A DNA stretch of 64,000 nt, taken from positions 2,265,001-2,329,000 of the forward strand of contig CP141149.1 in the NCBI GenBank assembly GCA_035235625.1. The letters run 5' to 3'. The notes below the pieces were generated by a model, which ran no database searches, was not told the DNA's origin, and saw only the letters and a program-made list of their open reading frames with translations. The DNA comes from Saururus chinensis (Eukaryota; Streptophyta; Magnoliopsida; Piperales; Saururaceae). Below, one piece after another: positions 3,505-46,246 of the stretch (the stretch's first letter is position 1; each line of letters begins with the position of its first letter). A program made the position numbers and the translations under genes.

Positions 3505-3695
3505 TCTCTTGGAGGCAAAATCATCCTCCCATGAATGGTGTCGGAAGGCCATTGCAACAAATGTCCACTAAATTTAGGTAGCCCACCCCCTCCTACACAC
3601 TTTTTCCCTAGTTAGCTCCTCAAGTTATTACACCACCATGTCAACAATCATCACTTGAAGTCTCTCAAAACATTCATGCACTCTACTAAAAAAGC
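3505..3695 (+). mobile_element. gag-region fragment of the E2 (Athila-like) family
   Basis: This stretch matches, on the opposite strand, the gag-linker region of E2 near 27830-27990. Shared stretches include the segment encoding a run of prolines and the block around ACCACCATGTCAACAATCAT. It lies next to an LTR of the same family, which is not the normal order, so this is a rearranged fossil fragment. Confidence 0.6.
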
Positions 3696-3699
3696 CATA

Positions 3700-4811
3700 T
3701 TAGAACTTTAAAATTCTAATCAAATGAACACTCAAGTCATAGCAAAACTAGAACTCAAATTGACTAGATAGCAACTCATGTAGAGGAGAGAGGAGAATAG
3801 AACAAACTAGAGACAAAATCATTCAATACCATCCACCAAAATTGATTAGAAAATACTTTGAAAGTGAGAGAATTGATGTCCCAAGGTAGAGGAGTGAAGA
3901 AGAAGCAACAAAAAAAAATTACAGTCGTGTGTTACTATAGCAGTAATGCTCACAAGCTGAAGGTTGAAGATGATGAACAATGTTCTTTTAAAATTTTCCC
4001 TCTTATTACATCTTGTAAGTCTCTTTTCAATTCTTCTAATGGAAAATTTATTTCTTAGGTTAAACAGTAGCTAAAACTCTTTGCTATGGCTTGGATGAAG
4101 CTTTATTAAATTATGGAATTTCATGATTATGAAACTTGATTAATTTTTCTTGAGGGTGGATTCAATGTTAATTGTTTCTACCTCTTTAATAGATGAGATT
4201 GATTTGGATATGAGCTTAGTCATGCTTCTCTCATGATTTAAATTGGTTCTCATTAGTTTCTTACTTGGTTTTCTCTTATTTAATATTTAAAATTTAGTAT
4301 TAGTTGTGTTTTGCAAAGTGTGGATACAATTAATGGCATGATTTTAATCTGTTGAAGTGAGGAGGCACAATGTATTTTTTTTATTGTACATGAGAGCTTA
4401 ATGATGATATTTTTTATAATAATGAAGATTGAATTCTAGATTATTATGAGATGAACGTGAAAAAAATAATTAATGATCATAATTATGAGTTTCTATGATT
4501 TCATGAATGTATATGCAAGGGTGTTATTTATTTCTTATTTTAGTTACTTTGTATTGCTTTCTTATTCTTTGATTAAAGCTTTAGAATTTTAATTTGGATA
4601 GTTTTATTGCTTTTAATTTCTTATATATGCATTTGTTAGTTGCTTTTTTCAATTTATTCTCTTTATATTTGTTAACTAGATTAGAGTTAGACTCGATTAG
4701 ATTAAATTTAGTTTTCCAATTTCAAGTCTATGTTGAATCGACACTCGATTTATCCACTTAATTATTATAGATTTGTGTGCTTGTGAGTAAACAATTAAAA
4801 TTCAATAACAA
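3700..4811 (+). mobile_element. LTR copy of the E2 (Athila-like) family
   Basis: This region is the diverged reverse-complement counterpart of E2's 5' LTR (about 35187-36390). The matches run through the segment ending in CATCTTGTAAGTCTCTT (3940-4030), a middle portion (4100-4500), and a 3' end with TATAGATTTGTGTGC near 4765 followed by AACA at about 4811. The left boundary is not defined by a terminal motif. It is an old, broken copy. Confidence 0.6.
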
Positions 4812-5393
4812 ATTTTTGTCAACAAGCATTGATCATCCTTTTACCTCAATCAGAAAATTTGATGAAGAATTGACGCTTGGTATTAAAGGACATTCTTTAT
4901 TGGATGAACAAAGAAGGCTTGATCAGAAAAATAAAAGGAAAGACTTACAATTTTTATTTGATGCAATTACAAACAATTCAAAATGATCAAACAACTAAAA
5001 AAAATGGGATTACAAAAGAAAAAATTAGCATGCTTTGGTAGGGTCCATCTTGCCTATGAGGTTGGTAATATTCAACTTCTTGAAGCCCTCAAAAGTCAAT
5101 TGAATCTGTTTACTATTGGCTTTCCAGGATTGTTGCTGAGCCTACATCACTTGAGTTCCCTCAATAGCTGAGAATATGTCATCCACATGTGGATCCCTAG
5201 TTGTCTAGCTATTATTTTCAATTGCATGACTAGGACATAGCAATTAGGTGTTAAGTCTCACAATCTAACAAGAAGTTCAAACATAATAGCTAACAAGGTG
5301 AACAACAAGACAGTGAATTAACTATACTAATATCACTAGCATTGTCCAAATCTTTTTTTTATCTCATTCGCCATTTCCCTTTATGTCTCATCC
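4812..5393. other. unassigned 0.6-kb stretch
   Basis: Two short open stretches on the plus strand (about 4777-4986 and 4983-5171) have no recognisable domain. The first bases could be a decayed primer-binding site after the LTR ending at 4811, but the match is poor. I see no terminal repeats here. Confidence 0.3.
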
Positions 5394-6907
5394 TAAGACA
5401 TCCCTCACATATAAAATCATTCTAAAATTTTAAATAAATACTCAAACTATTACGACTCATAAAATCTATATTCAAGAAATTAATACAACGGAAATAAAAT
5501 AATAATTGCTAAGGATTACTATGCATGGATATTGTAATTTATACATAGATTTATCTCCAAGCATCTCATGACTTTAAACATTTGTCAACATAAGTAATTA
5601 CAAGACTTTAATTACAGTAGAACAAACATAATTTAGTCAAAAATTCTTTCCTCTTTCACCTCCACCTTTACGACGACACTTATAGAATCTTTGAGTGGGT
5701 GAGTTTGGTCTATTGTGTTATATTCTATAAACAGACTATTCAAGAGTATTTATAAAATACTCAAAATCTGAGCATATAATTATTCAAAATATAAATCATC
5801 TGATAAAAAAACAAATCAATCTCGTAGCAATCTAAATCCTTTCACAGAGTCTTTAGGAAACAAATCACGATAACAGATCAATGAAGAATCTATGATACCT
5901 AATAGCATGTATCTCAATCTTTTTAAGAGCAAAAGCTACGATACCTATCTTATTATTTATAAGAGTAGAATATGTGATTCCTAACGTCTTATTCCTACAC
6001 TATGCGGCCACGAAAATATGATAGGATAGGAGCCTTCTCATGATGCACCTCACTTATACATGCAATAGCCAATTTTGGTTTGTATCATAATTATAATGAA
6101 TGTTCGTGGTTTATTAGTAACAGAACTAGCCAGAGAGTGCAACCCAAAACATTTGTAGCACAATTAAATCATGACATCAACATAATTTCCTTATAAAAAA
6201 CAAAGCTGATTTTGCTTTTAATTGCATGATATTTCAAGATCATTAAAATTCCCCAATCACAACATAGGTTTAAATTTCAAACCAACTATCATAATTTTTT
6301 ACGACAAATTTCTTCATTCTACTCTAATAAAGAAACCAACCTCACCGCAACATTTGGAACACTAGATTTATGAAAAATTGCCTTTTGAATAACCTGAATC
6401 AAACTTAAAACAACTTTGAAATAGAAAAATAAAGTTCAGTAGCATGTGGGAGTGGAAAACTAAAAAAATATACCCTTGCATTGTTTATATTGCATGGCAT
6501 CATGAATCGCATCAGTGCGATTGTTGCACGACGTGCGATGCATGACATATGTGTTGTGTTACCATGCGGTGTAGTGACGTGCCATTTTACAGTGACATGC
6601 TAAAGTTTGATTCATGTGTTCTTGGTATCATTTATTTTGTATCAATAAATGCTACAAAAGTAGACCCCACATGGGTAAGTTATCCCACACTTTTCAAGCA
6701 GGCCCTGCCATGTGACACACTTCTCAAGGTCATAACTTATGACTTTGATGTAAATTTTGAGTGGCTAAAGATCCGTTAGGTTTGTTTTTCAAAGCTCTAT
6801 CACAAACCCAAGAAAACTTACTGAGTAGAAACTTCTGAATAAATAAAATTTACTAAGAAGAGTTTATTAAATAAAGAAATTCTAACTGAAAATTTAGGAT
6901 CGATACA
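5394..6907 (-). repeat. E1 3' LTR
   Basis: On the minus strand it begins TGTATCGATCC (plus end 6907), just after a purine-rich tract containing AAGGGCAG. It ends at TAAGACATCC on the plus strand (5394). It aligns with the 5' LTR at 10020-12626 over most of its length. It contains the conserved inverted-repeat block at 6667-6714 that other chromovirus LTRs in the window share. Confidence 0.7.
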
Positions 6908-9900
6908 ATCTACTGCCCTTAATAAAATTTTGTCCTCAAATTTGATATCCTTTAGACATTAAAATTCTAGATACTTCCTTAACATTTCACTTTACAACTC
7001 CCAAGTTGCTTCTTCCATTGAGGTTCTTCTAAGAATATGTTCATTACGATACAAAAATTTTCTTCATTACTCTTTAAAGGTTAAGTCTGGCTGTAAAACA
7101 ACTGCAACTTTATCTAGAACATGTGAGGGATCCCTTATGTGCTTTTCAAGCATGGACACATGAAACACTCATGAACACCAAGAAGCTGTGGCGTAAGGCA
7201 ATTCTCAACAAGCTTAGCCCTCAAGGTTTTCAACTTGTCCACTCTAAGGTTTCACATTAATCTTACACTTTCAACAGCTTCCACAACAGAACTTTGTTAG
7301 AAAAGAATCACCACTAGGTAACATATCTCTCAATGTGCAAGTAACAATACCTATGTGTCAAACCTAGTACTCATGTCCCATACCATAAGTATTTCACGAC
7401 ACCATAGGAACAATTTCTACTATGTACTAGCACAACAAACCTTAAATGTATCCATTGACATAATGTGTCCCATACCACAAGTGTCTGCCAATTTCCCCAT
7501 GGCAATTCCACAAGCTTTCTCACATCTCCACCAAGGAGTGCTTCTAACACAAGACTGATCAACTTCAAATGGATCAATTATTTTCATACGACTTCAGACT
7601 TTTAGTTAGAAAAATGTCTTTCATACCAATTGTCACTACTTGCATTTTGAAAGCCCTTTTCAATATGAATTTTTAAAGCCCTTTTCAATAGCTGGAATTG
7701 TAAATCATGAGGAAATTATTTTTTTCTTAACAACCAAACAAACCATTCGATTAAATATCTAGGTCATGATAATTGGAGTTCACAATTATGAACATCAAAT
7801 TATATGATATTATTCCATGTCTACAAAATCTGTAAACAATATGAAATTCATATAAATACAAGTCTTCCATCATTTTTAAAAGTAATAACTAAGTTGGGTT
7901 TCGCACAAAAAATACAATTACTTACCAGGATTGTAGAAACAATGAACGAAATCTCACACTCATTTAACTTGGTCTTATTAGTCGCCGCCTAAAGAACCTG
8001 CAACCAAACAATCCAAACCACCAAAAATTTCTTTACAAGTCCTTGAACTTTTTTGTTCCTCCCGGTTGGATAGTGTGCCAAGATCTATTGCTTCATCCAA
8101 TAGATCTTTCCTTAACTCGGTTATCACTAGAATCACCAACCTTTCTCAGAATCAAACACCTTCATCTGAGCCCTTACTAAAGTCGGGCTTTCCAAGTAAT
8201 GCTTGCACTTCCTCATCTCCTCTCACTACCTCTAGAATGCATTCAAGCAATGCAAATTTCACTTATAAATCAGTAATAAAAGATTTATTGCTTCTAGGCT
8301 ATAATGTATGTTGAAAGCTTATCACTCATCCAACAATTTCCACTCATTCACAAGTATTTGAGCAACTCTTCCTTTGACTTTGTGACTCAAAGCAATAACT
8401 ATTACATTTGCTTTTATTGAGTAGTACTACCTTTTCCTCATGTTGAGGTCACTTTAAGAGAATATGTACTTCATACTTTGGTGATATATAAAAACTTCAA
8501 ACAATTCTCCATACAAATAATGTCTCCAGAATTTTAAAGTTAAGCCTACTAGTACCAATTCTAGATCATGAGTGGGGCAATTACATTCATCTCTTTTTAA
8601 TCATCTTGAAGAATAAGTTATTACCTTCTCATTCTGCATCAACACACATTAGAGGCATCTTCTTGAAGCATCACTATGCACAACGAATACTCCACTGCTA
8701 TATAGTAATCTGAGATTGGTGCAGTCATTAGTTTCATTTTAGATCTTGAAAACCATTCTCATATGCTTCATCAGAAGTAAGCTTCAGCCCTTTTCTTGTC
8801 AATTTTTTCGATGTTAAATCAATACATGAAAATCCATAGAAGAACTTTTGGTAATATCCTACAAGACCTACAAAACTTTTAATTTCCATAACTATTTTGG
8901 CCTTTCCCACCTCATCACTACTTCTATCTTGGTTGGATCCATTGCCCGACATCTTTTGAAATAACAAGACTTAGAAAAATATTTGTATGTGTTCTCAATG
9001 CTATTCTGAGCAAGTAAACTTGATTAAGATATCGTCAACAAAAACAATCATAAATTTATCGAATTAAGCTTGAAAAACTCAACTCATAAGATCCATAAAA
9101 GTTGCAGGAGCATTTGTCAATGCAAATGACATCACCAAAAATTCACAGTGATGGTACCCTGTTTGGAAAACAGTCTTTGTGATATCATCATCTCAAATCA
9201 TAGCATATAAAGGAATAATTCAACTCTAAATCTATTAAAACTTTACTAATCTTGTCCAAAATTAGAAGTATACCTTGTATAACTCCCTTTGAAGCTTGAG
9301 CTTCCTCTGCAATAATAGCATAGACTAGCCCCTAAGCTTTGGATTTTGTTCTTACTTTGTCTTCTATTGGCTCATTTTCTTAGTAAAATTTCGAATCTGG
9401 TGTCCCCATTCATCACAATGAAAACATTGTCCCTTAGAGTAGTAACAAACTCTGAGTGGACGAGGTCGATTGTTCTCGGAATACTTTAAAACTTTTTTCT
9501 TCCAATATGATTGTGTTTATTATTCAATAGGTTTCCAAAAATTTTGGTTACTATTCGGGTTATTGAACATAATCTTTCTCTTTCTTTCTTCAGCATTAAA
9601 ATAGCTTCTCTGCCTACAGTCCTTATGTTTTTCTAAGAACTCTTGATAATCCTATTCAAATAGAGAAGCCAATTCCACTTCTTTGGCAAAGGTAGTATGT
9701 TTAGGATAGAATCCTTGTGCCAGTAGATGCCAAGTCGTTCTTTGCATCATCAAGTTAAAGAAATTTCTATAGTCCCTTGATACCACTAATTCCTAAGCTG
9801 ATGTATGAGTAGTTGAGTCATCACTCTATTGTACATATATATGCAATTATCAGATGTCATCTCTTGTGTGTTAATATATTGTAATGACCTTGTATTAACA

Positions 9901-15018: not shown

Positions 15019-15680
15019 CACTACAACAAATGAGAGCATTAGTAACGCTTGTAAGCGTTGTTAATACTCTCAAAATCGTCCCTAAAGGGTATTTGCGATG
15101 CTTACGGAGCGTTGCCATAAGCATTGCAAATAATCGGGTCAATAATAGTAAGTTGTGATAGAAAAACTAAAGCGTCGCTAATAGCACCTTTAGCGACAGT
15201 TTATAATCGTCGCTAATAAATAGTCACTAATAATTTAAAGTATTAGCGACGGTTTTAATTATGTCACTAATAATAAAAACTAGTGACTGTTTTATTTGCA
15301 TCGCTAAAAATAGTATTAGCGATGTTTTCGACTGTCGCGAATAATAAGTATTAGCCATGATTTATCATTGCTAATGATAAATATATTAGCTACTTTTTAT
15401 TAAAGATATATATTAGCGACGCTTTGCATGAGCATCACTAATAATTGTATTAGTGACACTTTATAAGCGTCGCTATTTAAGATCAACTATTAGAGACGTT
15501 TGGTAATCGTCGCTAATATGATTATTAGAGACGCTTTCAAAGTGTCACTGTTTAATAAAGGTAAAGGTAAAAATTAGCGATGCTAATAGAGCGTTGCTAA
15601 TTGGAATATTAGCGACGCATATGAGCTTCGCTAATAGGACCATTAGGGACGCTTTTGCAAGCGTCGCTAATGAACGAAAA
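15019..15680. repeat. CACTA subterminal repeat array
   Basis: More than a dozen imperfect copies of a TATTAGCGACGCTT motif occur, many arranged as head-to-head pairs (GCGTCGCTAATA...TATTAGCGACGC). In the En/Spm family such subterminal motifs bind the TNPA-type protein. The array ends at an A-rich run near 15680. Confidence 0.85.
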
Positions 15681-15935
15681 AAAAATTTTAAAAACAAATG
15701 GTGTGCTAAATAGAAATGAAAAATTACATTTATAATTTCTGATTATATCAGTACAATCATATCTCGATTATAGTTTAAAATCTCTTCTTACCATAAAATT
15801 TAAGTTCTTTCCTGTTAATGACATATTTGAAGATTAACTATCTTAACTCAATATCAAAATCTTCACTGCCTCCCCTCTGAAACAGGTATACATCAATATG
15901 TTCCTCGATGTGTTGTGACTATGATACATATCTCA
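15681..15935. other. spacer inside the CACTA element
   Basis: AT-rich DNA without a coding signal joins the terminal array to the captured synthetase fragment. Positions 15921-15960 look like a partial duplicate of 16033-16072 (GATACATATCTCA...GAGATGGAATA). Confidence 0.5.
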
Positions 15936-17468
15936 TCACGAGATGGAATAGCCAGTGTAAAACCAACCATCTTTCATCACTTTCTTTGGTAAATTATGGG
16001 TTTTTGTGGTAGCCACAGAAGACAGCTTTCCCCCTGATACATATCTCACCATGAGATGGAATAACAAGTGGGTCGTAGCCAAGCTCCAGGACCTCCTCAA
16101 GATGAATCTCAATGAACACTGAATCGTTCCAATCAATTCTATGTCATCGGGATAACAACATGATACCGATCCACAAATCTCTGTCAACCCTATTTATTTA
16201 AGCAATATCAGATAAAATAGGTTACTAAAAAAGGTATGATTTCTTATATATATTCATTAACATTGCAATTATCAAACTTCAAGCAATTTTGTTCCACTTA
16301 ACCATAGCCTTGAGCAACAAAACTGCAACTCGTAACCCTCAAAAACTCCTCTATCTTAGTGCTTAAATGAGCACCTCCAGAAATTATTAGGCAGATCCAC
16401 GCTCCTAATCTTGCCTTGACCTATATAAACAAATCCTATTGATGGATCAAAGAAGTTTTCAAGGACAAAACAAATCCTAAAAGTAAGGAATTTTGTGAAC
16501 TAAATAGTACACAAATACCATATTACGACAATATGGCTATCAATTCAGTAATCCTTTATATTAGGTACCACAAACCTTGGGCAATCGTGTCTTAACCCTA
16601 ATCCTATTTTTTCCAATGAATCCCATGCCCCTTTCAAATAAATAAATGGAAGGATATTTTTCCATACAGAAACTAACTATTTTTGTCAAAAATGAAGACC
16701 CGAATACCTGTTTGCAAACAAAAACGTGGTTTACCATTTTTTCCTTTTGTTGAAAAGAAGTATGAATTTCTATTGAAGAGTAAGAAGAACATTATGGTCA
16801 AAAATCCTGTACACCCATTTAGTGTATTTTACAAACATTATAACCTCTTTTGGAAATTACGCTAACTATTTGTATCTTGCCATACATGATATTAAATAAA
16901 GAGCAAGAATAAACCTTATGGAATGCTAACAAATCCACCAGAGATGATGCTTTTTGGTGCCCATACCCTAATTTCATCCAGTAAAGTTTGTTGATTCACA
17001 ACAAAGAAATCAAAAAAGTTAAAAATATATATAATGCTTTCAACTAGGAACAATGGAGAACATTATTATTGAGATCAGGTTTTGGTCCATTCGGTATTAT
17101 GTCTCGACACTTGAATAGCTTGAAGGCATAAATGGTTGATTTTAAATATTATCCATGTCATATTACAAACCAGGTTCTGATGCAACCAATACGTAAAAAA
17201 TGATGAAAATTTTCAATCAGGTCACTATGACCTATTACCACTTTAACTTAGTACTTGTATAAAAGATCAAATATCTTTCTGGTCCGTGGGTTCAATTCCT
17301 CTAATGCTCCCAAGACACTTACAAAACATTGCAAGTGTCCATTATGCCACCATTTTGCCACCACGATCAAGTTAAAGCCAAAAAGATACTAACATACCTT
17401 CATGAACCTTTTCAAACACTCTAGGCATGCCAGCAAATAAGGTTGGCTTCAACTCAATAAGATCATAC
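15936..17468 (-). pseudogene. captured long-chain acyl-CoA synthetase gene fragment (at least 4 exons)
   Basis: Four exon-like blocks lie in order on the minus strand. 17468-17398 encodes YDLIELKPTLFAGMPRVFEK, flanked by AG and a GTATGT donor. About 16985-16915 encodes KLGYGHQKASSLVDLLAFHK. About 16420-16304 encodes LIISGGAHLSTKIEEFLRV and ends QGYG. About 16189-15957 starts LTEICG and ends DGWFYTG. In plant LACS enzymes (AMP-binding family, which activates fatty acids to acyl-CoA) these blocks follow one another; QGYG-LTE is the adenylate-forming core motif and DGWFYTG matches the later DGW(F/L)HTG motif. The N-terminal P-loop exons and the C-terminus are absent. In the last block the reading frame shifts between GTI and KVMKDGW, so no functional product is expected. 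Intron positions are retained, which argues for capture of genomic DNA rather than a processed copy. Confidence 0.8.
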
Positions 17469-18229
17469 CTAATAGTATTCATATCCTTCGTAATTATTTT
17501 TTTATAAAATGTCACATTGGATGGTCAATCAAGAAATTTGAAAAAAATAACCTTAAGAAACAATGATTAGAAGTCCAGACCCCTTGATAGTAACCGACGG
17601 AATCATGCTAGCATTTTCTCTAATTGAGACTATAAAGTTGACATATGCCTAGCATTTTGCATGAGCAATCTTGTTCGGCAGTTTGAAAGAATTTCGAACA
17701 ATAGCCCGAAATGTCAATTTATGCGCTAATATCAGGTTGTACCAGGTGGGCAACAAAGAAAAAAAGAAATACAAGCATAATATGTATATAAAGAATAAAT
17801 AGCGTGAAAATAATGTCACAAAGTTCTTTGTGTATGTGACACATAAATGCATACACAAATGGTACTCACTAAAATGACCTCTAGATAAAATCTGTGGTTT
17901 ACTTGCAACGGTGTATATATACACAACTGACAAACTTTTTAATCTATTTTTACTACCTCTCTTAAATTTTTTCGAAGACGACTTCATTTAGAGTTTCCCT
18001 GGTACTAGCAAACTACAAAGTAGATTTAAGAATTGCATTTTCCACGAGCCAATCTGAAATAATTTCCACAAACTATGAGAAAAAAAAAGAAAATTACCAA
18101 AGAATACAAGTAACAACTGCTACCCTTTATCTCTATGTCACAGAGAAAAAGATAAGGAGACAAAAGACCCCTTAATTAATCATATGAAGTAAAAAATTAT
18201 ATATTAAAGCGATAATATACTACAATCAA
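17469..18229. other. unassigned stretch between the two captured gene fragments
   Basis: A 112-codon minus-strand frame (17987-17649) shows no domain and is lysine-rich, then hydrophobic. It is probably intron or flanking DNA of one of the captured genes. No splice-bounded block could be matched to LACS or ROPGAP here. Confidence 0.4.
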
Positions 18230-19190
18230 AATTGAGGTCCCAACTTACCAAACTCGTCAAGAAACCGAAGAGCGTTTTTTCTAGAAATGATGGACACCAT
18301 CTATATCTTTTAAAGCAAGTAAAATGGGCCTGCCAACAACCATTAACTTGACAGGGCGGTGCTTGTCTCTCCCTGTAGAATAAAATAGTTAAACATTTAT
18401 TGTTAAAGATATTTATGGCTTTTCCCTCAAAGATAAAATCATTTAAAATTGTCAATTCCTTTCAGAGTTTTGGGATTAACATTGTTTTTCCTTTCTAGCA
18501 TTGGGCTTGTTTCATGCTTCTACATGCAATGACATGCAAAGGCAAGGCTCTACAGCAAACAAGAGCAGAGTAGCCTTACACAGACATGACATAACCGATT
18601 TCTATTGTTGGCCAGTTAACCTTTTTAAAGAGTAAGCTACTTGATTATATTTAAAATACATGTTTAGTAGCACAAAAAAATCCAAAATGATCTTTAACAG
18701 CAAGTGTTATTATAGCACCAGAGAAAGAACGAACATTGAAAAGATCCATCAATAGCATTAGCCGTGTCATTCCGAAATATTCCATTGTTTCCCATGACAA
18801 GAGCAGCACTAGGTGCCTGTGCCAAAGCATGCTCCAGAGCTGTTTTCCACTCGTAGAGATCTTATGAGGACTCTGCCTGCTAAGTCAAAACATAAAAAAA
18901 TATTATGGTATAAGAATATACAAAGATATAACAATTAAGAAAAAAGAGTTCTATAGATTGCTTTCTGCACTTCAAGGAGGATTGATAATGAAGCACCTTC
19001 AGAGAGAATACTCGCCCATCACGACCATCAGGAAACAAAACAGTCAGTAGTTTTTTATCCTCCCTAGCCACCACAATGAAAGTAAAATTGTCAATATATT
19101 TTCAAGATTATGAGATTACATTTGAACAGAGACAAACAACTAATTGAAGGACCTACCTTCCAGAATTATTCCAATCAATTCCACCTAAAG
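18230..19190 (-). pseudogene. captured ROPGAP (RhoGAP with PH domain, REN1-like) gene fragment
   Basis: Exon-like blocks on the minus strand, in order, are: about 19190-19157, LTLGGIDWNNSG with a GT donor; 19074-18997, REDKKLLTVLFPDGRDGR then VFSLK and GT; about 18875-18740, DLYEWKTALEHALAQAPSAA then LVMGNNGIFRNDTANAIDGS; about 18375-18240, KHRPVKLMVVGRPILLALKD then, in another frame, SFLEKTLFGFL and a GTAAG donor. The blocks are colinear with the plant ROP GTPase-activating proteins that carry a PH domain (REN1 group), spanning the end of the PH domain and the entry to RhoGAP. The catalytic arginine region lies downstream in the family and is not present. The change of frame inside the last block and the lack of both gene ends mark it as a non-functional captured copy. 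Confidence 0.82.
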
Positions 19191-19684
19191 TGAGAAGAGG
19201 TCAAAACTTATCTAATTGTATGTAATACAATCTGCCTTTGCACTCATAACAATAACCAAAAATATTGATGTCTACAATGCAAATGCAATTAATTACTCAA
19301 ATAATTTAAGGAGAAAGAGAGGCCAAAATTCATATCCAATTCAAATATTGGTGTCCAAGATAAAACTTAATTCATAAAAACTGGACAACAAGCTTGTCTA
19401 GAGCTTTACAACTTTCCAGCAGCTACTATTAAATTTACAATAAAACTGTAATACTTTTAGAATTTTTGCATAACAATGTAAAAGTAAAGTACTAGTACGC
19501 ATAGGCATAACATTTATTATTTTACGTAAGGTTGAGCTAACGAATAGTTTCTAAAATATATTAACTTGAATGACAGTTGAGATTAGTAATAAGCATTACG
19601 TTAGCATTAGCGATGCTTGCATCATTGCTCCCTCATAAATTCCATAAGCGTGTCATTTTGAGTTTGTTGTTCTTGAATTTGACT
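19191..19684. other. spacer between captured fragment and TNPA-like gene
   Basis: AT-rich DNA. A subterminal-type motif (TTAGCATTAGCGATGCTT) occurs at about 19603-19620. Nothing else is recognised. Confidence 0.4.
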
Positions 19685-20645
19685 TTAATGTTGTTCAATA
19701 TGGATTTCTTGATGTTCAAGACGTTCTTTATATTTTTCAATCATCACACGCACATTAGAAGCTAACCTTTCTGCCATTTGGGCTCTTTGAGTAGCATTTT
19801 TGAGCTGCGCAGATATCTCTTGTCTTGATGGAGACGCTAGGTCCATCTCACCTTTTTCAAGACCATGCACATAATTCTTTCATTCCCCTATAATCTAAAA
19901 TGCTATTTGGTCTTCAGTTAGTCCTTGTGCCCACTCGTCTGAACTTGATGGTCATCGCAAGCTTCAATCATTTTATTCTGCAATTATAAATGTCTAATTA
20001 AATCAATAAAAAATATAAAAAATTAAAGTCATGATATTAATACATGCAAACTAATCAATAACTAAGCCTTACATGCAAATCATGAGCCTCATTGCTTATC
20101 CAATCACCATTTCTTGTTGAGAAGTGGGTTTCTTTGTAAAAATCAATCATACTAAATTAATGATCCTCATTCTCATTCTGCTTACGCTGTCTCATTCAAG
20201 GGTAAGTAAAAAGATAGGTGCAACAAATAAATGTAAAGTGTAGCCCACAAATAAAACTAAGATGTTGCAAGTATTACCAACTCCTCAAAGTAACATACAA
20301 ATGGTTTTGAACCTCCAGTATGTCGGATTTTCAATTACTGTCGGTTCCTCTTAGCTACAAAACTAATATCCTACATTGAAAGTTGCACTCATGTTAAGAA
20401 TAATGTAATATCATGTTAGCAAAATAAACAAGAAAAATATGCACATATAAAAGAATCATAGTCCATACCTCAAATTCCTTCAATGCAAACCTATCACAAA
20501 TTATTTCCCATTTGTCTGAGGTAATAGTATCATATGGATTGGCTTTCGTTGTAGCTAAATCTCTATGTGTTTTGAAGTGTTTGTGCATGTGATATCTAAA
20601 GTCTTTAAACCTCTCAGCGAATATCCTATTAAGTGCAGTCATAAC
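19685..20645 (-). pseudogene. CACTA second gene, TNPA/Ptta (Transposase_24-like) remnant
   Basis: The block at 20642-20460 contains KWEIICDRFALKEFE preceded by an HMHKHFKTH region. It corresponds to the conserved W..(I/L)CD.F....F segment of plant Ptta/En/Spm proteins. The block at 19870-19685 (Gln/Glu/Lys-rich, QMAERLASNVRVMIEKYKER) is the coiled-coil C-terminal region. In CACTA elements this protein is thought to bind the terminal repeats. The intervening sequence may be an intron or decayed exon. It lies downstream of TNP2 on the same strand, as usual for the family. Low integrity. Confidence 0.7.
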
Positions 20646-21582
20646 ATGACCAGGGTCTCCATGTAATTCGAAGTTATCCGACTAAATTGTATAAACAATA
20701 TATTAAAAAATTAATACGTATGGTACTAAGAGTTAGTAAAAGGAGAAATAAATTCTGAAATGAAATCTACCTTAAGCTTATCATGCAATAACACTTTATT
20801 TAGTCTTGGAACATGTCTCCAATCAGAAATAAATTCTCCCTTTCATCTATCATTGATACATAATATCAGCATTTGAGTCCTTCTTTGCATGTTAATTCGG
20901 CACATTTAGTGTTATTGGTTTCAATTTATCATTGGGAATTTCAACAATTATTTTCCCTTTCTTTTGCACCAATTCATGCAATGATCTACTGACTGCCTTT
21001 CCATGACCTCTCTTTTGTGAAGATCCTATAAAAAAAGACATTATATAAGATAACGTATTATTACAAGACATATAGAGAGACTACCTGCATCACTAGAAGA
21101 AACAAGAAAAAATAGCATATTATAACAAGGCATATAGAGAGATTACTTGCTTAACTAGAAGAAACATCTAAGCCATCTGCAAACTCTCCATCCCCATATT
21201 TGTTTATTAAGTGTTGTTGCTTGTTGCCTCCAGGAGCCATAACTTTAAACATATTTTAGTAAATAAATGTAAGTGGAGACCATTTCAATTTAGAACAAGT
21301 AAAGGTTATTGACTAAGTGAATATTGTGTTCAACTAAAAAATGCCATAAATCAATGTGATTTATTTGCAAATTTTTAATTACTTTAAATAACTACATAAC
21401 AACTATGCCAGAATTTTCATCACTCGACATAAGTGTTTCTTCCTCACTACAATACTCATTTATAGTATCATCTTCTGCATCAGTCATATCATCATTAATG
21501 AAATTCAAAGCTCAATCATCTAATCTCATATTGGCATTAATTGCATGTGAATCAATATCAATGGGAACCATGTCCTATCTCT
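20646..21582. other. inter-gene part of the CACTA element
   Basis: AT-rich DNA with short motifs of the upstream part of the second gene on the minus strand, such as the lysine/arginine-rich stretch near 20990-21030 that reads GKAVSRSLHELV. No complete exon was delimited. Confidence 0.4.
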
Positions 21583-23768
21583 TTAATGGTAATAATTCAT
21601 CTTAATCAATTTCATTGTGAGGATTGACAATCCCATTGTATGCAATTTGCTCCTCTTCTTGATAGTCATCTTCAATGTTGATAGCCCCTCGCCTTCCTCT
21701 GCTTCCATAACATCATACATTCCCCTTGGCTTCAACTTTTGCACAATTTGCCAATTACCCTGCAATTTAGTGTCCTTCATGTAAAAAACTTGTGTACCCT
21801 GAATTTCTAGAATGAAAGGGTCATCCTTGTACCACATGTTAGATGTATTAATGGCTATAAAGTGGGCATCTGTGTGAATTCCTGATTTTTTCCTGTATTC
21901 CATCATTCGCACTTGAAAAGAGAAACCTGAAACTGAAACAAGTAGTGTAACTCAATAATGTCTATCAAGACACCATAGAATTCTATAGATTTTCCATTGT
22001 GCTCCCCGCTAACAATGACACCACTATTTTGTGTATGATGATTTTTTTCACGCTCTTTTGTGTGGAACCTCATACCATTCACGATGCAACCTATATATCT
22101 TATTATTTGTTGATTTGGACCACATGCTAATGCATACATTTCATCGTTCGTAGTTGGCCGACTCTAACTATGTAGGAGTTCTATCTGTTGGGAAAAAAAT
22201 TGATAAACCAAAAGTTCTAAAATAAAAAATTCATGTATTATCATAATAAGGTATATTATATAAATTTGTATGCCCACTTACACGTTTCACAAATCAATCA
22301 CTAAATTTTTTTTCATGCCTTTGTTGCAAATTTTGAGAATTTTCATGCATTAACTCTATCTTGTGCTCACTACATACATATATTAGAATTATATATTACA
22401 AATATTAAATTCACATAGCAATTTTAGTTGCAAATGCAAATATAAGTTTACTTGTGAAAAGTAATTCTCTATTTCGGTACAATTATTCAACACATAATAT
22501 CGAGCCTTAGTGAGCTCTGCTAGGTTGAGCTTGTGAAAAGTGCCAGATCCAGGTTGAACATTTTGTCCAAACACAGAATGTCTGGTGCATGGTTGGCCTT
22601 CACATCCATCATGGTTACGATGTTTATGATTAAATCTAGTCTCAATACCATCAAGATACATGGAGTAAAAGGTGAGACATTCTTTGTTGATGTAAACTTC
22701 AGCTATCAAGCCCTCTGGACGTGCTTTGTTATGCACATCTTATTTTAGAGTATGGAGGAACCTATTATAACGTGTTAAACATAAAATTAATCGATAATAA
22801 AAATCAAAATATATTCTAACCTTTCAATCGGGTACATGCACCGATACTGGACAGGCCCACCTATTATCGCTTCATAAGATAAATGAACTACTAAATGGAC
22901 CATAACATCAAAGAATGGCGGTGGAAATACTCTCTCTAGCTTGCATAATATAAAGACGATTTCTTTGTCAACAGTCTCCAATACTTTCAATCATAGTGTC
23001 TTGCTACACTACTCTTTAAAGAAGAACCCCAACTCAATCAAAGGCATTGACACTTCCTTATTCAAATATCCGCGCATTGCAACCAGGAGGAGCCTTTGTA
23101 AAAATACATGACAATCGTGACTTTTCATTTCCAATATCTTGTAGTCATTATCATGAACTCAACGAGATATATTAGATGCATATGCGTCTGGAAATTTAAC
23201 TGGCTTCATCCACTCACAAAAGGGACATTTTTCATCTTGGGACAATGTATAGCATGCAGGTGGCATCACATATCACCAATTTTTCTCAGGTGTAACTCTA
23301 GCCTTAAAGCCCATATCAGCCAAGTCTAAGCGGGCATTTATGTTATCTATTGTTTTCTCCAAGTTGAATAGTGTTCCAATAATATTATTACAAATGTTCT
23401 TCTCAATTTGCATAACATCCAAATTGTGACGTAGCTTGAGTGTTCTCAAATAGGGTAATTCAAAGAATATACTCTCTTTTTTCCAATTTAACTCCCCCTC
23501 AATACGTTTCCTTTTCTTGTTGTTTTGTCCCTTCCCAAATACAACCTGACTCACATTTTCCAACTATGACAACAAGTCATCCCAGACAATTATAACGGCT
23601 TTGACCTCAATTATGATTTCCCTTTTTATTTCTCCTTATACCGAAATTGTGAATAGTGCTTGTGTGGCAAGAAACGACGATGTCCCATGCAAGATGTCTT
23701 TCTACCATGATTCAATCTTTCATAGCTATCATCTTTATTGCAAGTTGGACATGCCAAAAAACCCTTAG
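21583..23768 (-). pseudogene. CACTA TNP2-type transposase gene remnant (Transposase_21, DUF4218, DUF4216)
   Basis: Minus-strand blocks in family order are: 23768-23620, GFLACPTCNKDDSYERLNHG and GHRRFLPHKHYSQFRY-type sequence (TNP2 N-terminal half); 23563-23273, FFELPYLRTLKLRHNLDVMQ with IEKNICNNIIGTL (Transposase_21); 22990-22787, CKLERVFPPPFFDVMVHL and GGPVQYRCMYPIERLE (DUF4218); 22736-22389, PEGLIAEVYINKECLTFYS; 22139-21903, GCIVNGMRFHTKERE with TQNSGVIV and FYGVLIDIIEL, and 21912-21583, MWYKDDPFILEIQGTQVFYM (DUF4216). The catalytic protein would cut and join CACTA ends. Upstream exons are missing because the copy stops at the junction with E2 at about 23770. The coding blocks are split by several stops, so this copy looks dead. 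Confidence 0.85.
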
Positions 23769-23797
23769 TACTTTCTTCAGCTAGACCCACATGAAAC

Positions 23798-26700
23798 TCA
23801 ATCCCGATAAACAGGATCTTCTAGAAGTAATTCATCAACTTCTAAAATCTTCAACTCTACAAATGGTTTAAAATGGTGACCATTGACTTTAAACACCACA
23901 CTATTCCTAGGATTCTCAATCTCAATAGCTCTATAGGAATAAAATGTATGAACTATGAAAGGACCTATACATTGAGATCTCAATTTTCCCAAAAATAAAT
24001 GCAAACAAGAATTATAAAGAACGACCTTCTGACCAGGTGCAAAAGATTTTGTCAAAATGTTGAGATCAAGAACCTTTTTCGTTTAGTACTTATAAATTTT
24101 AGCACAATCATAAGCATCATTTCGAATTTCCTCCAGCTCATTAATCTGCAACATCCTATGAACACCTGCCTTGTTAAGATCAAAATTCAATTGCTTTATA
24201 GCCCAATATGCTCTATGTTCTAACTCAACAAAAGATGACAAGCCTTACCAAAAATAATTCTGTATGGAGAAATTCCAATGGGAGTTTTAAATGCGGTACG
24301 ATATGCCCACATTGTATCAATAAGTTGTAATGACAAATCCTTCCTATTAGGGTTTACAATTTTCTCAAAAATTTGTTTAATCCCCCTATTAGAAATCTCA
24401 ACTTGACCACTAGTATTGGGGTGATAAGGTGTAACAATTTTACATTTCTTCATTAATTGCTCGAAAACCCTATTATAGAAATGCTTCCCCCTATCACTAA
24501 CAATGACACGTGGAGTACCAAAGCACACAAAAACATTCTCTCTCAAAAAGTGAACCACAACCTTGTGATCATTTGTTTTGGAAGCGATTGCCTCTACCCA
24601 CTTAGACACATAATCAACCCTGACAAGGATGTACAAATTACCAAAAGAATTAGAAAAGTGACCCATAAAATCAATGCCTCAAACACCAAATATCTCAACT
24701 ATCAAGTTTGGGTTTAGTGGCACCTTATTTCTACAGATATACTCCCTAACTTTTAACATCTTTCACAGGCTGAGCAATAGGTGTGAGAATTTCTATAAAT
24801 GGTGGACCAATAAAATCCACACTACAAAATCATTGCAACAATCTTTCTAGAACTAAAGTGACCGCCACAAGCATGATCATGACAAAAGAAGATGACATTT
24901 AGTTGATCATTTTCAAGCACACACCTCCTAATTATTTGATCGGGACAATATTTGAGGAAGTAATGGTCATCCCAAAATAAGTACTTAACCTCAACTAAAA
25001 ATTTACGTCTATCTTGTTTAGTCCAATGAGAAGGCATTTGCTTAATAACAAGATAATTCACTATATTAGCATACCAAGGTAGCAGGAGATATGAAGTAAA
25101 TACTCATTAGGAAAAAACTCAGTAATAGGTACAGAATCATTAGTAAAATCAACTGTAATCTAGATAAGTTGTGTACTACAACATTTTCAGAACCCTTCTT
25201 ATCCCAAATTTCAAGATCAAATGCCTGTAGCAACAATATCCATCGGATAAGATGAGGTTTAGCATCCTTTTTAGATAAAAAGCACTTCAATGCAACATGA
25301 TTTGAATAGACAAAGACCTTGGACCCTAATAAATAGGACCTAAACTTATCTAGTATGAAAACAATAGCTAACAACTCTTTTTCGTGGTTGAGTAATTGAG
25401 TTGAGCATCATTTATAGTTTTACTAGCATAGTAGATCACATGGGGAAGTTTATCAATGTGCTACCCTAAAATAGCACTAATGACAAAATCAGAGGGATCA
25501 CACATACTTTCAAAGGGCATACTCCAATCTGGTGGTATAATAATAGGTGCAGATGTCAATTCAGTCTTAAGCATTTCAAAAGCATGAAGACACTCATCAT
25601 AAAAAATAAATGGAGAATCTTTGGCAAATAAATTGCACAAAGGTCTAGAAATTTTACTAAAGCTTTTGAAAAATCTCCAATAAAAGTTTGACCAAAAAAT
25701 GATCTAATTTCTTTTACAATTTGTAGAGGTAGAAGATGAGAAATTATATCAATTTCAGCTTTTTCAACCTCAATGCCCTTATGTGATATGACATGCTCAA
25801 GAGCAATCCCCTTTTGTACCATAAAATGACATTTCTCCCAATTAAGTACAAGATTCTTCTCCTTACACCACACTAACACTAGGGAGAGGTGGTGTAAACA
25901 CTCATCAAATGTAGAGCCAAAGATGGAAAATCATCCAAAAACACCTCTAGGAAACATTCTACCATGTCTGAGAAAATGTTAATCATGCATCGTTGGAAAG
26001 TGGCAGGTGCATTGCATAAACCCGAAGGGCATGCGACGGTAGTCAAACATCCCAAAAGGACGAGTGAAGGTAGTCTTTTCTTGATCCTCTGGTGCTATAG
26101 GAATCTGGTTATAACCGGAATACCCATGATGAAAGCAATAATAAGCATGGCCGGCAAACCTCTCTAACATCTAATCTATGAAAGCAAGAGGAAAGCTATC
26201 TTTCCTTGTCATAGCATTCAACTTCCTATAGTCAATACAAACATGCCAACCTATTTGAACATTAGTTGGGACTAACTCAATAGAATCATTCTTGACTACT
26301 ATTATACTAGACTTCTTTGGCACAACCTGAACAGGACTCACCCAACTACTCTCAGAAATTCGGTAAATGACACCCACAAAAAGCTTCAAAACATTTGCTC
26401 TAACCACATCTTGCATCATAGGGTTTAAGAGCCTTTGAGTTTCACATGAAGGTTTAACATTTTTATCTAAGTGAATTCTATGCATAACTCAGAAGGACTA
26501 ATACCCTTAATGTCAGAAATTCCACCCTATAGCCTCCTTGTGATCTTTAAGGACATCAATTAATTTTTTCAATTGAAATCATCTAGATTAGAACCTATGA
26601 TGACTAGTAAAGTTTCAGAAGAAACTAAAAAAACATACTTGAGGGTGTCAGGTAATGGTTTTAGATCCATCTTGGGTGGTTCCACAGTGGATGGAAGGGG

Positions 26701-27310
26701 TGGTGATGATGATAATGAAAGAGGAGTGACTTTTGGTTACCATTTTTTAGTACTCATCAGAGGAACAAAATCTAGAAGTGAATTAACCTCCTCAACTAAT
26801 TTTTCAATGCCAACTGCAACCAAAGTTTTCTAGACAGGTGTCTAAGGGATCCTCAGAATGTGATTCAATGAAAGTATTATGAACAAAACTATCAATCAAG
26901 TTAACGTCATTCACATCTTCCATGTTTGGTGGTTGTTTTCTTATGTGAAAAATGTTAAGCTCAACCATCGTGTTTCCAAAAGATATTTTCTACAATTTAT
27001 TAGAGCGTTGGATGTGGCCAAGAAAGGACGATCCAAAATGACAAGAATTTGCCTATTGATATTTTAATCAGGCTAATTATTAAAGACTACAAAGTCTACT
27101 GGAAAGTAAAATGTGTCAACCTTAATTAGAGCATCTTCAACCACACCTCAAGAAATTTTGACAAATCTATCAGCTAATTGAAGTGTCATTGATGTGGGTT
27201 TCAACTCTCCCCATCCCAATTGCACACACTAACCCCCCAATCTAACAAAGTCCCGCTCAATGTGATGATCTCCTATCTTGCATGAAACTGTGGAACAACT
27301 AGGGTCCTTA
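23798..27310 (-). pseudogene. E2 protease-RT-RNase H-integrase region (fossil)
   Basis: Recognised parts are: integrase C-terminus (FKVNGHHFKPF, LLLEDPVYRD); integrase core with [21 protein letters not shown] and [10 protein letters not shown]; RNase H ([17 protein letters not shown]); reverse transcriptase (CIDYRKLNAMTRKDSFP; YYCFHHGYSGYNQIPIAPED; PFGMFDYRRMPFG); and protease with LQLADRFVK and VDTFYFPVDFVV. The domain set and the C-terminal VDELLLEDPVY are typical of Athila/Tat-side non-chromoviruses. Several breaks; no function expected. Confidence 0.8.
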
Positions 27311-28014
27311 TATTTGATTGGGAATTTACATTGAATGATAGAGCTAACTTGCTCTATTAGGAATGTCTTTTTAGGAACATTTGTTTTCCTCTTGACTGTG
27401 ACTAAGTCTTTTTAAAAATTTAGTATAGGAGGGCACTTGATGGATAGAAACAAGTAATGGGTTGTTTATTAGGGATTTAGGCACAAAACTCCTAACTAGA
27501 GGGTTAACTAAAATAGGTGGAGAGTCATTGGATTCCTGTTTCTCACTCTTTGACTCTGTATTCTAAGTTCTCTCTTCTTTAGTTATTTTTACAAGATTGT
27601 CAACCTGTCACCCAGATCTATGAGTGATGATTGATTGGACATGCCCTTTGTCATGTGATGAACTTGAAGCATTACTAACAACAAATTGACCTTTAGGGTT
27701 GTGTATAAGCTGACTGGGAAACTTGCTCTTCTCTCTCACCCACATGAATTGCTAATTGGTAAATTTGAGTTTCTAGTTTAGCTATGGCTTGGGTGTTCAT
27801 TTGACTATAATTTCTAAGTTATAATATGGTTTCATTAGTAGACTGCATGAATGTTTTGAGAGACTCTTCAAGTGATGATTGTTGACATGGTGGGGTAACA
27901 ACTTGAGAAGCTAATTGGGAAAAAGAGGTGCAGGAGGGTTGGGGTGCCTAAATTGAGTGGATATTTGTTGCATTGGTGGCCCTACTCCATTCATGGAAAA
28001 TTTGGATGATTCTG

Positions 28015-28592
28015 TCAATTTTGATTGTATATCTCATAGAAGACATTGCCAAATAGTTTAGCATAATTGTTTAGTGCATTTTCTTGCTCAACAAAGTACT
28101 TAGAATAACCTAACATGGAATGACACGTTTGAGGACTACGGATTGGACTTGAGCACAAAGAACACAATTCATTTTGAATCTGGTTGGCGGAATTTATGTT
28201 TCTAGAAAGGATCATGGCTTCTCCTTTTCTAGTTAGTTGGTCTAACCTAGCTTTTATGCCAGTATCTTCCCTTACTTCATATAAGCCTCCTTTGCTAGGG
28301 TTTTGGGTTGGCTTTTCCCTATGTATTGAAAAATTCCATTGTTGGGAACACTCAGACAAACCCTCTAAGAACTTATATACTACAGCATCATTTAGACTCA
28401 AGAAACACCCACTATTTATAGATTCAATCATATTGTGGTGTGTTTTAGTCAAACCATTGTAAAAGTATTGCAAACGTTGCCATGTTTCAAAACCATGGTG
28501 GGGATACTTCAAAAGTAAGTCCTTAAACCTCTCCTAACTCTCATCAAAATTTTCATACTCCTCTTGACAAAAGTCAGCCATCTCTCTCCTTA
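28015..28592 (-). pseudogene. E2 gag part, left of the E3 insertion
   Basis: Contains the gag-typical WQRLQYFYNGLTKTHHNMIE, the FLSLNDAVVYKFLEGLSE segment, and the PSKGGLYEV linker that also occurs in family B gag. It continues on the far side of E3 at 34567. Confidence 0.75.
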
Positions 28593-28919
28593 TGTTGTGC
28601 ACGTTCGACCGGGCTTTCTTTCCGCTCTAGTTATCTTTTATTTGATTACATTAGGTAACTTTATTTCATATTTTCTTATGTAATAAGTCGGTAGTATGAC
28701 ATTTATGTGTAATGGACCAGCTAGCGTCCCTACGGATTAGCCGGGCCTACTAGTTGGCTTGACTCCCAAGGAGGAGGCATGGTTCCCTATATGGGTCATC
28801 CCTCTCCTCCCTTGTTTTGGTTATGCAATAGAAAACTCAACTTCTTCCCCTTTCTTCTTCCCTCCTTCTCCTTGTGTGATTTGTGCAAGGTATTGCTTGT
28901 GCCCAAACTAGGCACAACA
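28593..28919 (+). repeat. E3 5' LTR
   Basis: 327 bp, TG...CA, paired with 34258-34561. The next bases are the primer-binding site. Confidence 0.9.
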
Positions 28920-32490: not shown

Positions 32491-33994
32491 ACAAAGTATA
32501 TATCTTAATAATTAAGATATGCATGCATATAACTTATATTAAATTAGAAGATCAGAAAAGTGTACTCCCCTGCAGTTTCAGAAGTGACAATGTTTGAAGT
32601 TACTCGTTACCTCATAATGTCTTTCATTTCAGTTCTAAAGATGGTGGGTAGAACCTCCTCTAACTTCGGAATACTTTCTCTTTCCATGCCCGTAAGCTAC
32701 GGACAGAACCTCCCCTTAACCCGGGAACACTTTTCCCTTTCCATGCTTGTAGGCAAGGTGCAAAACCTCCCCTTACCCGGAGACACTTTATCCTCACCGT
32801 GCCCGTAGGCAGCTGACAGAACCTCCCCTTGCCCGGAGACACATTTCCCCCATTGTGCCCGTAGGCGGCGGACAGAACTTCCCCTTGCCCAGAGACATTT
32901 TTTCCCTTCCTGTGCCCGTAGGCATCGGGCAGAACCTCCCCTTGCCCCCAGGATTTTTCTCCTATATAGCATTGCTAACTCAAGGAATGGACACTTCCAT
33001 TTCATTGATCACCCTCGAATTAGCTAGGAATGCCTCTTGAACGACTCGAATCGGACATAAAATGAATGAGAAACGAAGAACAGAAGATAAGAAAACATGG
33101 GAGAATCTCCCCTCATCCGGAGATACTTTACCTGTTTTGCGCCCGTAGGCAGCGGACAAAACTCTCCTTGCCCCGGTATGTTTCCCTTATATAACATTGC
33201 TAACTCGGAGAATAGATGCCTCCACTGCGTAGAACACCCTCGAATTAGCTAGGAATGCCTCTTGAACGGAAGGAAACAAACGTAGAATGACTCCCGAAAC
33301 TCCCCCAGAAGAATGAACAGAACTTTCAATTTATAGAGGAAGCCTGCGAGCTAACAACGTGTGCATGCTTACATGCGTGACATGTGTCAGGCCACAATTG
33401 GCCAAAAAAATGGCACTGCACACTTAACGCGTGCACGTGAATCGCACAGCACCGGCACGCATCTGCCGCGCATTCGTGAGGACGCGCCGCACGTCCCGCT
33501 CAGGTCCCGCGATCGGCCGTCCGATCGCGAGGCCCCGTGTTGCACGGATGGCTGAGATCTGGCAGTGCGGCTCTGACTCAGCGTGGCTCTGGCTCGGCTC
33601 GGCTCGATGACATCATCAATTCTATTATTTTATTATTATTTTCTTTAAACACAATTTCAAAGATCAAAACGTGATAACTTCTTATCCCGAAGTCGGAATT
33701 GCACGATCTTGGTACCGATGGACTAGTATCGACGAGCCTTTCAAAACTAGACCCCACATGGGTAGGTTATCTTATACTTTTAAAGTGGATCCCGCCCATG
33801 TGGTATGCTCCCGAGGTCATAACTTTCATTCCTGGCCTCTGTTTTGAGTGTTTTTGGATGCATTGTGCTTGTTACTTCGAGCTCTACCCAAATATGAGAA
33901 TTTTAACTCTTAAAATCCTTGAAAAGTTTACTAAAATTATATAATTAACCCTAACCCTCTTAGGTTAAGCGTAATCGGAACACGGGGTGTAATA
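32490..33994 (-). mobile_element. chromovirus LTR fragment inside E3
   Basis: On the minus strand it starts TATTACACCCCG (plus 33994). It matches the solo LTR at 46839-56296 through the GC-rich upstream part, the inverted-repeat block (33754-33803), a TATA-like stretch, and the minisatellite, then stops near 32490. It interrupts the integrase of E3. The right edge is defined by the terminal motif; the left edge is not. Fossil, incomplete. Confidence 0.75.
32650..32950 (-). repeat. 55-57 bp minisatellite within the LTR
   Basis: Five tandem units start at 32650, 32705, 32762, 32818 and 32874, with a partial sixth at 32931. Each contains AGAACCTCCCCTTGCCCGG and GTGCCCGTAGGCAGCGGAC. Isolated units recur at about 33105-33175, in the solo LTR near 47700-47770 and 47930-48014, and at about 55424-55490. 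Confidence 0.85.
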
Positions 33995-36949: not shown

Positions 36950-38382
36950 ACTCGTTACGTCAGTAACCAAGACTATTAAGAAGTAAAATTCAGATTTGTT
37001 TTACTTGCCAATTGTAGTAGACAAGGTCAATCTCCAGGGAAAGCCTTGTGCAACAAAGAAAATGATCAAGAGAAGAAAATAGAGGAAATAAAAATTAATT
37101 GAGAAAGAGTAGAAGAGTGTTAAAGCAATAAATAGTTAAGAAAACAATAAGATAAAACATTAAGGCATTAAGGGTCATTGTAACATCTAGAGATGTTCTT
37201 CATGTATCATGTTATCTCAGTTAGAATCGAATGAAGATTCTATATAACCGGAAGATATGAACATTAAAAGCAAAAACAAAGATAGAAAATACTTTGGATA
37301 GATGAAGGATAAAAATAATTGTTTTTTCAAGAGTTCTATCTATCAAAATCACAAAAGATCAAGAAGGAGAGCCTTCAAGTATCTTATGTATCCAAATCAC
37401 ATAGAAACAAGAAGAATAATAATATTAAATGAACATCACTTCAAATAAACAATACTTACTTAAAACCATAGATGAAACATGAATAGAAATCTATTAAATT
37501 ATTACAAATCACCTCTAGCCTTAGAAAGCCATTACAATAAAACTAAAAACAAAAGTACAAAAGAAGAGAAGGAAAATATGAGAAGAGAGCTCCAAAGAGG
37601 AGGAGATGATGTCTCTACCATCTTCACCCCTCTATTTATACAAGTAGAAGGGGTAGCTTCAAAGGGAAAAGTCCAATCCTATCCCTTGATTGCAGCCTGA
37701 CTGATTACATAATTAGTTGTTTATTTGGCAATGATTAGATTCTAAATCAATCAAATAAATCAATTATTTATTTAGCAAATAAGTTTCTTTAAGTCTTCCT
37801 TTAGTTATCCAATAAGCCTCATTGTCTTTTTTTATGTGTATCAATCACAATCATTGAAAAGATTCTCTATGTGTTGGCCTCGAGTTAGTTAATTAGTTGT
37901 TCCTTTACATGCAGGATTTAACCTATATATCTTCGAAAGTATGAATTCTGGCTGAAATATAGATTGTAGCCACGGAAGTCTTCGTTTGAATGCTAGTAAA
38001 ATCGTATCAATCTGAATTTTATATAGAAAAGTATGATCAAAGTACTAAGGCTGTGTCAATCTATCCAAATCAGCTTCTTCTGAAATTTAGTTCTTTTAAT
38101 GCAAATTTGAAATCGAACGCGTCCAAAAGGTTGTGTTCGACCATTCAATGCATGTTTAGACCATTAGGAGCCTATTCTTGACTTTTAAATAACTTTGGGT
38201 AGTTGGCCTTTACTTTCTCTTCTACTTAGATCCTGTTGAAGTCTGTTTAAACATGCAAACACAACTAAGGTCCAACTCACCTATTCAAACATAAATAGCC
38301 TAAATAATTAATGAATTAATAAAAAATTAAGTTGTAATTCAAAAGTTAAAAACATTGAATTGAACATTATTTTAGTGCATTA
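36950..38382 (-). repeat. E4 3' LTR (family A)
   Basis: About 1.43 kb. It matches 1-1161, 44236-44705 + 58351-59248, and 61391-62712. On the plus strand it ends ATTTTAGTGCATTA just before the purine tract of E4. The terminal dinucleotide at the left edge has diverged. Confidence 0.8.
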
Positions 38383-44729: not shown

Positions 44730-44980
44730 CCACACTTTTAAGTGTCGCTTAAATTAAAAAAAACAGTATTAGTGGCATTTATGTAAACGTCGCTAATGTA
44801 TATAATTATTTAAAAAAATAATAAATTTATTTTTAAATAAAAAAATTTATTACAATTAACGACGTATAAAAATTATGTTGCTAAAAGAATTAAAAAAACT
44901 AAAAAATAAAAAACACTATTAGCAATGCTCTTATAGAACGTTGCTAAAATAATTAAATATAAAAAAAACAAAAAACTGGG
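44730..44980. repeat. left subterminal repeats of the CACTA element
   Basis: Degenerate copies of the TTAGCGACG/CGTCGCTAA motif occur in both orientations, separated by A/T-rich runs. Confidence 0.7.
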
Positions 44981-44984
44981 TCAT

Positions 44985-46230: not shown

Positions 46231-46246
46231 AAAAATAAATATTTCC

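Follow-up and report, generated by a model that had tools for sequence, protein, structure and literature searches.

How does one transposon come to hold pieces of two unrelated host genes, side by side and in the same orientation? The question is raised by a CACTA (En/Spm-type) element in a 64-kb stretch of DNA (the window; G000:C10:2265001-2329000) from a 516-Mb genome of 11 contigs, a plant's according to its gene content. In this element fragments of a long-chain acyl-CoA synthetase gene (LACS) and of a gene for a ROP GTPase-activating protein (ROPGAP) lie, introns included, between the transposon terminus and the minus-strand transposon genes. An earlier sequence-only reading had proposed this arrangement, and the terminal repeat, the repeat array beside it, Pfam matches and alignments to two donor genes now bear it out. 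We consider it likely that the window holds a decayed copy of a CACTA family that acquired host DNA in two or more steps, through the repair of breaks with template switching.

Structure of the element

The left terminus (15019-15680, plus strand, left flank TCT) has the two features expected of a CACTA element: an exact match to the terminal inverted repeat (TIR) CACTACAACAAA at 15019 (15019-15030) and, directly after it, a subterminal array of TAGCGACG-type units reaching to about 15680. The cargo follows on the minus strand, and both of its fragments are in the sense of the transposase. The LACS fragment (15952-17752) was recognized by DNA alignment to its donor, by an exon map and by the match of its X-joined exon pieces to the AMP-binding family PF00501 (6e-15). 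Its exons lie at about 17485-17397, 17320-17249, 16991-16914, 16420-16302 and 16188-15952, and about 340 bp of the donor, one exon included, are absent from it at 17602-17605. The ROPGAP fragment (17749-19195), recognized by donor alignment, an exon map and the domains of the donor, has exons at about 19195-19158, 19077-18997, 18876-18736 and 18373-18248; exon borders in both fragments were set by eye.

Beyond the cargo lies the second CACTA gene region (19625-21080, minus strand), TNPA-like by position only, for which a Pfam search (21.08-19.63 kb) returned no family; the same DNA occurs in one related copy (L028) and in part in another (L029). It is followed by the remnant of a TNP2-type transposase gene (21500-23790, minus strand), whose X-joined pieces between 21.5 and 23.8 kb match DUF4218 (4.2e-39), DUF4216 (5.6e-11) and Transposase_21 (1.7e-10). 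This gene is truncated and broken: its 5' side is missing, and it ends abruptly at about 23.78 kb against gypsy-type retroelement sequence (23790-28600, minus strand; open reading frames recognized by eye, junction read) that lies outside the CACTA element.

No second end could be assigned to the window copy in a scan of the window and its flanks (10 kb on the left, 20 kb on the right) that looked for GTAGTG-type ends differing from the TIR at no more than three positions. Both candidates found to the right of 15019 were discounted, one (58339-58350) as the end of another CACTA element and the other (window coordinate 73369) on account of its three mismatches and of a flank that reads GGT instead of TCT. 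Pairing of the TIRs at 15019 and 58350 as a single 43-kb element was rejected because their flanks differ (TCT versus ATA) and because 36954-37665 resembles the unfilled site of a second CACTA element (44706-58350), which owns the end at 58350.

Donor genes

The LACS cargo peptide gave 57 matches in its own genome, which group into 20 loci: the window, 17 loci that were fetched (L024-L040) and two less similar LACS-like genes (42-51% identity) that were left unfetched. The donor is L024 (G000:C2:58702500-58711000), to which window 15952-17605 and 17602-17752 align at 92.0% and 91.3% DNA identity. Open LACS exons flank the captured part there on both sides, and its AMP-binding match is strong (4.1e-50). 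For the ROPGAP peptide there were 13 matches in six loci, and the donor is L053 (G000:C1:7657001-7662000), matched by window 17749-18393 and 18393-19195 at 92.8% and 92.2%; its open exons encode PH (6.6e-13) and RhoGAP (9.3e-18) domains and continue past the captured part. L024 and L053 were read over the fetched stretches of 8.5 and 5.0 kb, each part of the gene. A second ROPGAP gene on contig C2 (L044) aligns over exons only, at 69-81%, and L053 is therefore the better donor. The sequence-only reading had named the second fragment as a PH to RhoGAP junction, an identity now settled by the domains of this donor; the window pieces alone gave no relevant Pfam or PDB match.

Introns came along with the exons, at identities of 94.7% (LACS) and 93.5% (ROPGAP) with gaps excluded. 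Because identity of 91-93% extends over exons and introns of both donors, the alignments demonstrate capture at the DNA level from two unrelated genes on different contigs (C2 and C1), as had been suspected before the parental loci were located. Introns are retained in both fragments, as described earlier, and at one point in ROPGAP a likely acceptor is lost (AT for AG). Both donors persist elsewhere in the genome, and this, the retention of introns and the multiplication of the cargo inside a mobile unit are the features of transduplication.

Related copies and the order of capture

The window and the 16 fetched LACS loci other than the donor are treated here as 17 copies, a number that is a lower bound. 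All 16 others align to the window element, with LACS joined to DNA of the same CACTA, and they are spread over nine of the 11 contigs. The terminal array (from 15019-15023) followed by LACS is found in 14 of them; L028 has part of the array only (from 15487), and L029 has no array yet is joined to TNPA-side DNA, which also follows the cargo in the window and in L030. Recurrence of the same array and LACS at so many sites defeats unrelated insertions or misassembly as an explanation, one of the outcomes that would have undone the original proposal. One copy, L039, is complete at 3396 bp, with both TIRs exact and a 3-bp target duplication (TTA on both sides), and L025 is nearly complete, with a changed first TIR base and unlike flanks (GTC and GCT). 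The cargo thus lies within the mobile unit and was multiplied with it. ROPGAP is present in five of the 17 copies (the window, L027, L030, L037 and L038), none of which was read to both ends.

We note two further rearrangements among these copies. In the LACS-only subgroup L031-L036, donor position 4192 is followed by other shared sequence (for example L034 3815-5041) that is up to 99% identical between copies and may be further captured DNA. In L028 the TNPA-side DNA is inverted relative to the LACS cargo.

The extent of LACS differs between the copies in a way that bears on the order of events. In the reverse numbering of L024, used for the LACS extents that follow, we read the capture as spanning at least 3.9 kb of the donor (3580 to 7513). 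Retained LACS reaches 7502 in the LACS-only copy L026 and 7513 in L029, neither of which shows ROPGAP, and L033 and L034 contain 7071-7334; in the copies with ROPGAP the limit lies at 5908 (L030, L037 and L038), 5734 (window) or 5027 (L027). Because L026 and L029 keep parts of LACS that the ROPGAP copies lack, LACS was probably captured before ROPGAP, in line with the sequential capture suggested earlier. The retained LACS segments are the firmer basis for this order. A tree built from the LACS part (18 rows, 1668 columns, 200 bootstrap trees) supports it weakly: the five ROPGAP rows fall together on the same side of a branch (82/95, without a star; found in 86% of bootstrap trees), and none of 500 shuffles was as clustered.

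Several observations weigh against so simple a history. No ROPGAP was seen in 12 of the 17 copies, of which only four are informative, L025 and L039 by reaching the right end and L026 and L029 by continuing past LACS into other DNA; the other eight diverge or end too early to tell. LACS 6593-7071 was seen in none of the copies. The ROPGAP branch lacks a star, 12 of the 15 inner branches of the tree are open, in eight of its 18 rows less than half of the columns are filled, and the bootstrap was still unsettled. The ROPGAP piece starts at 2744 (numbering of L053) in both L037 and L038 and at 1520 in L030, the window and L027 starting at 1581 and 2493 respectively, so that a single ROPGAP capture is unproven; the shorter piece in L037 and L038 may reflect a deletion or a separate event. 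In L030, the piece to the left of ROPGAP may belong elsewhere in the element, which would fit a fusion of two elements too, and a 14-bp stretch of unknown origin lies beside ROPGAP.

Junctions and the mechanism of capture

At the LACS end beside the array lies a 36-bp filler (15922-15957, minus strand) that resembles LACS 16035-16070; its template is about 80 bp inside LACS, and it overlaps the LACS block at the microhomology AGTG, where the two are joined. The filler is clear (up to three mismatches, ungapped) in 12 of the 17 copies and carries a 2-bp deletion in three more (L025, L026 and L028). L029 stops short of the site, and in L040 the breakpoint was lost by collapse between the two 36-bp repeats, leaving one; the breakpoint itself is retained in 13 of the 14 copies with the full array and in L028. 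Since 15 of the 17 copies share the same breakpoint filler, these go back to a single capture event. A chance origin of the repeat was considered and rejected. Its score of 45.7 exceeds the maximum of 41.0 from 20 Markov shuffles of 15680-24000, a stretch in which another repeat, of 70 bp, scores higher (67.7); this test is thin when taken alone, and it is the presence of the filler in so many copies that decides the matter.

A second filler stands at the transposase-side end of ROPGAP. In L030 it comprises 53 bp corresponding to L053 106-158 (96% identity, E 3e-19 among only 22 sequences); at the same end of L027 there are 58 aligned columns corresponding to L053 103-158 (91%). The template lies 2.9 kb away in the donor, with a switch overlap of AGA. 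The window retains only about 8 bp of it (19196-19203, minus strand) because some 430 bp held by L030 are missing there; 8 bp prove nothing by themselves, and it is L030 and L027 that carry the case for a second filler. At its other end the ROPGAP piece of the window joins LACS directly, at GGCA (17749-17752). This join is ruled out as the original capture junction by L030, which has about 0.6 kb more at this place.

Because the junction filler was copied from elsewhere in the donor gene, we propose repair with template switching. In a first step, attested by the copies, an element gained a LACS stretch spanning about 3.9 kb of the donor, placed beside the terminal array. In a second step, which the retained LACS segments support, one sub-lineage probably acquired about 1.6 kb of ROPGAP, with LACS on one side of it and the second transposon gene on the other, and the distal part of LACS was lost. 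A broken or partly excised element may each time have been repaired by copying from the donor gene. Switches of the polymerase between templates, at microhomologies of 3-4 bp, would have left the filler, itself copied from the donor, that stands at the LACS junction and at one of the ROPGAP junctions. The LACS-bearing element evidently amplified. In CACTA elements generally the transposase needs only the terminal region, which would let such cargo be carried. The ROPGAP step could, in addition, have fused two neighbouring CACTA copies. In its most specific form the proposal has two successive captures, each by break repair with the polymerase jumping inside the donor (fillers of 36 bp for LACS and 53-58 bp for ROPGAP), the second perhaps joining two CACTA copies; we offer this version tentatively, at somewhat below an even chance. 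If it is true, the models of template switching and of two-element fusion would combine in one mechanism.

Fusion could also account for the cargo by itself. Two CACTA copies would flank a donor segment, lose their facing ends and remobilize as one element with host DNA inside, the Pack-CACTA mechanism of Catoni et al. as described in parts of PMC13317346 and PMC8903248. This explanation appears less likely, with some points in its favour. To the left of ROPGAP, L030 has sequence common to L026 and L037, followed by the 14 bp and then ROPGAP, and the right flank includes 69 bp common to L029 beside TNPA-side DNA. For one element alone, this order seems disturbed. Such a shared piece fits the joining of two CACTA copies, and it is suggestive only, because L026, L028 and L037 are themselves rearranged. 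Against fusion stands the ROPGAP filler, which, with its template 2.9 kb distant in the donor, implies copying at a break; this argument is qualified by the fact that end joining can likewise copy nearby DNA. In addition, the stretches fetched for the two donors (8.5 and 5.0 kb) yielded no TIR-like end with up to two mismatches, a weak test given that the scan likewise came up empty in L028 and L029, and in L037 because its first base is changed.

Decay of the cargo

Alternatively, the fragments could be functional cargo, giving rise to chimeric transcripts or to small RNAs through which the donor genes are regulated. We think this improbable, judging from how the cargo has changed since capture. 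Both fragments are in the transposase sense, and many 21-mers of the donor exons occur exactly in at least one of the 17 copies (393 of 498 for LACS and 190 of 300 for ROPGAP), the window copy alone matching 85 and 53 respectively. Chimeric transcripts are made by the soybean element Tgm-Express1 (PMC1947982). In terms of substitutions only, ROPGAP exons differ less from the donor than its introns do (17 of 381 versus 69 of 1061 sites, 4.5 versus 6.5%), though with p = 0.17. In LACS (15952-17605), however, the leaning is opposite, and exons differ more than introns (41 of 594 versus 55 of 1037 sites, 6.9 versus 5.3%, p = 0.19). When the two genes are pooled, exons and introns are alike (58 of 975 and 124 of 2098 sites, 5.95 and 5.91%, p = 1.0). 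The reading frames are also damaged: the window LACS has a 10-bp deletion, a 1-bp insertion and a stop in its last exon, and the window ROPGAP has a stop in one exon, the likely acceptor change from AG to AT before another and three insertions or deletions in a third. As exons and introns have diverged alike and stops and frame breaks are present, the exons show no sign, at the sequence level, of being kept, and the cargo looks neutral now, carried along passively.

Other origins of the cargo

Had LACS and ROPGAP stood side by side on a chromosome and been captured together in one event, their shared orientation and direct junction in the window would be accounted for. In the present assembly this idea is refuted, except if a donor moved after capture: the donors are on different contigs, LACS-only copies exist, and the direct junction of the window is without the roughly 0.6 kb that L030 has there. 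Equally remote is the idea that the exon blocks represent another transposon, a Helitron or Pack-MULE that inserted into the CACTA element, or an assembly join, even though both kinds of transposon also bear host gene fragments (PMC1947982, in part), since the join of array and LACS recurs across many contigs, TNPA-side DNA follows the cargo in three copies, and L039 is a complete CACTA element with its own target duplication. The hallmarks of a Helitron are a 5' TC, a 3' CTRR with a hairpin and insertion between A and T; evidence against one here is indirect, no search having been aimed at such ends, and consists of the CACTA DNA that flanks the cargo on either side.

Comparison with known elements

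Capture of gene fragments by CACTA elements is already well documented; the value of the present case is that donors, intermediates and junctions are found together in one genome. A literature search made without the species name found no report of an element with LACS and ROPGAP; we do not claim that none is in print. The comparisons that follow draw on parts of the papers cited. Tgm-Express1, a soybean CACTA element with five host gene fragments (PMC1947982), is alike in holding pieces of several unrelated genes with exons and introns; it sits in an F3H intron, whereas the window copy keeps transposase remnants and has relatives that indicate the order of capture. Pack-CACTA or Pack-TYPE elements (PMC8903248) are alike in that CACTA termini mobilize host DNA, that one element may have more than one donor and that short copies, like L039, are multiplied. 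They are described as non-autonomous and without transposase genes, in contrast to the window copy with its TNP2 remnants, and in the portion of PMC8903248 at hand donor-templated junction filler, present here, is not mentioned for them. In Pack-TYPE surveys, maize Pack-CACTA elements hold the most distinct loci (PMC8903248). Grapevine Cactavine-5 (PMC2528002) likewise has CACTA copies with host gene sequence, termed transduplication, from other donors; its fragment lies downstream of the transposase in the opposite orientation, antisense to PPR genes, whereas both fragments here are sense. In Chenopodium (PMC8978399), CACTA elements also hold captured gene pieces (Neprosin and AP2) outside the coding part, there in the 5' region upstream of ORF1 and here downstream of the transposon genes. 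According to a 2026 review (PMC13317346), a capture mechanism may still await discovery. With donors, LACS-only copies, LACS-plus-ROPGAP copies and junctions all in one genome, competing models of capture become testable on sequence alone.

Neighbouring repeats in the window

The second CACTA element (44706-58350) has the ends CACTACAAGAAA ... TTTGTTGTAGTG and an imperfect target duplication (AAA/ATA). Nested in it at 48015-55423 is an insertion resembling a long terminal repeat retrotransposon, with terminal repeats about 99% identical, TG...CA ends and a 5-bp target duplication (CCTAC); judged by its sequence, this insertion is recent. A repeat of unknown kind is present in four copies of about 80-90% identity (1-1162, 37520-38380, 58411-59251 and 61390-62716), the first inverted relative to the other three. 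A long inverted repeat in several pieces (32749-33990 and 46843-48014, 74-89% complementary), with 56-bp tandem units in one arm, encloses about 13-15 kb.

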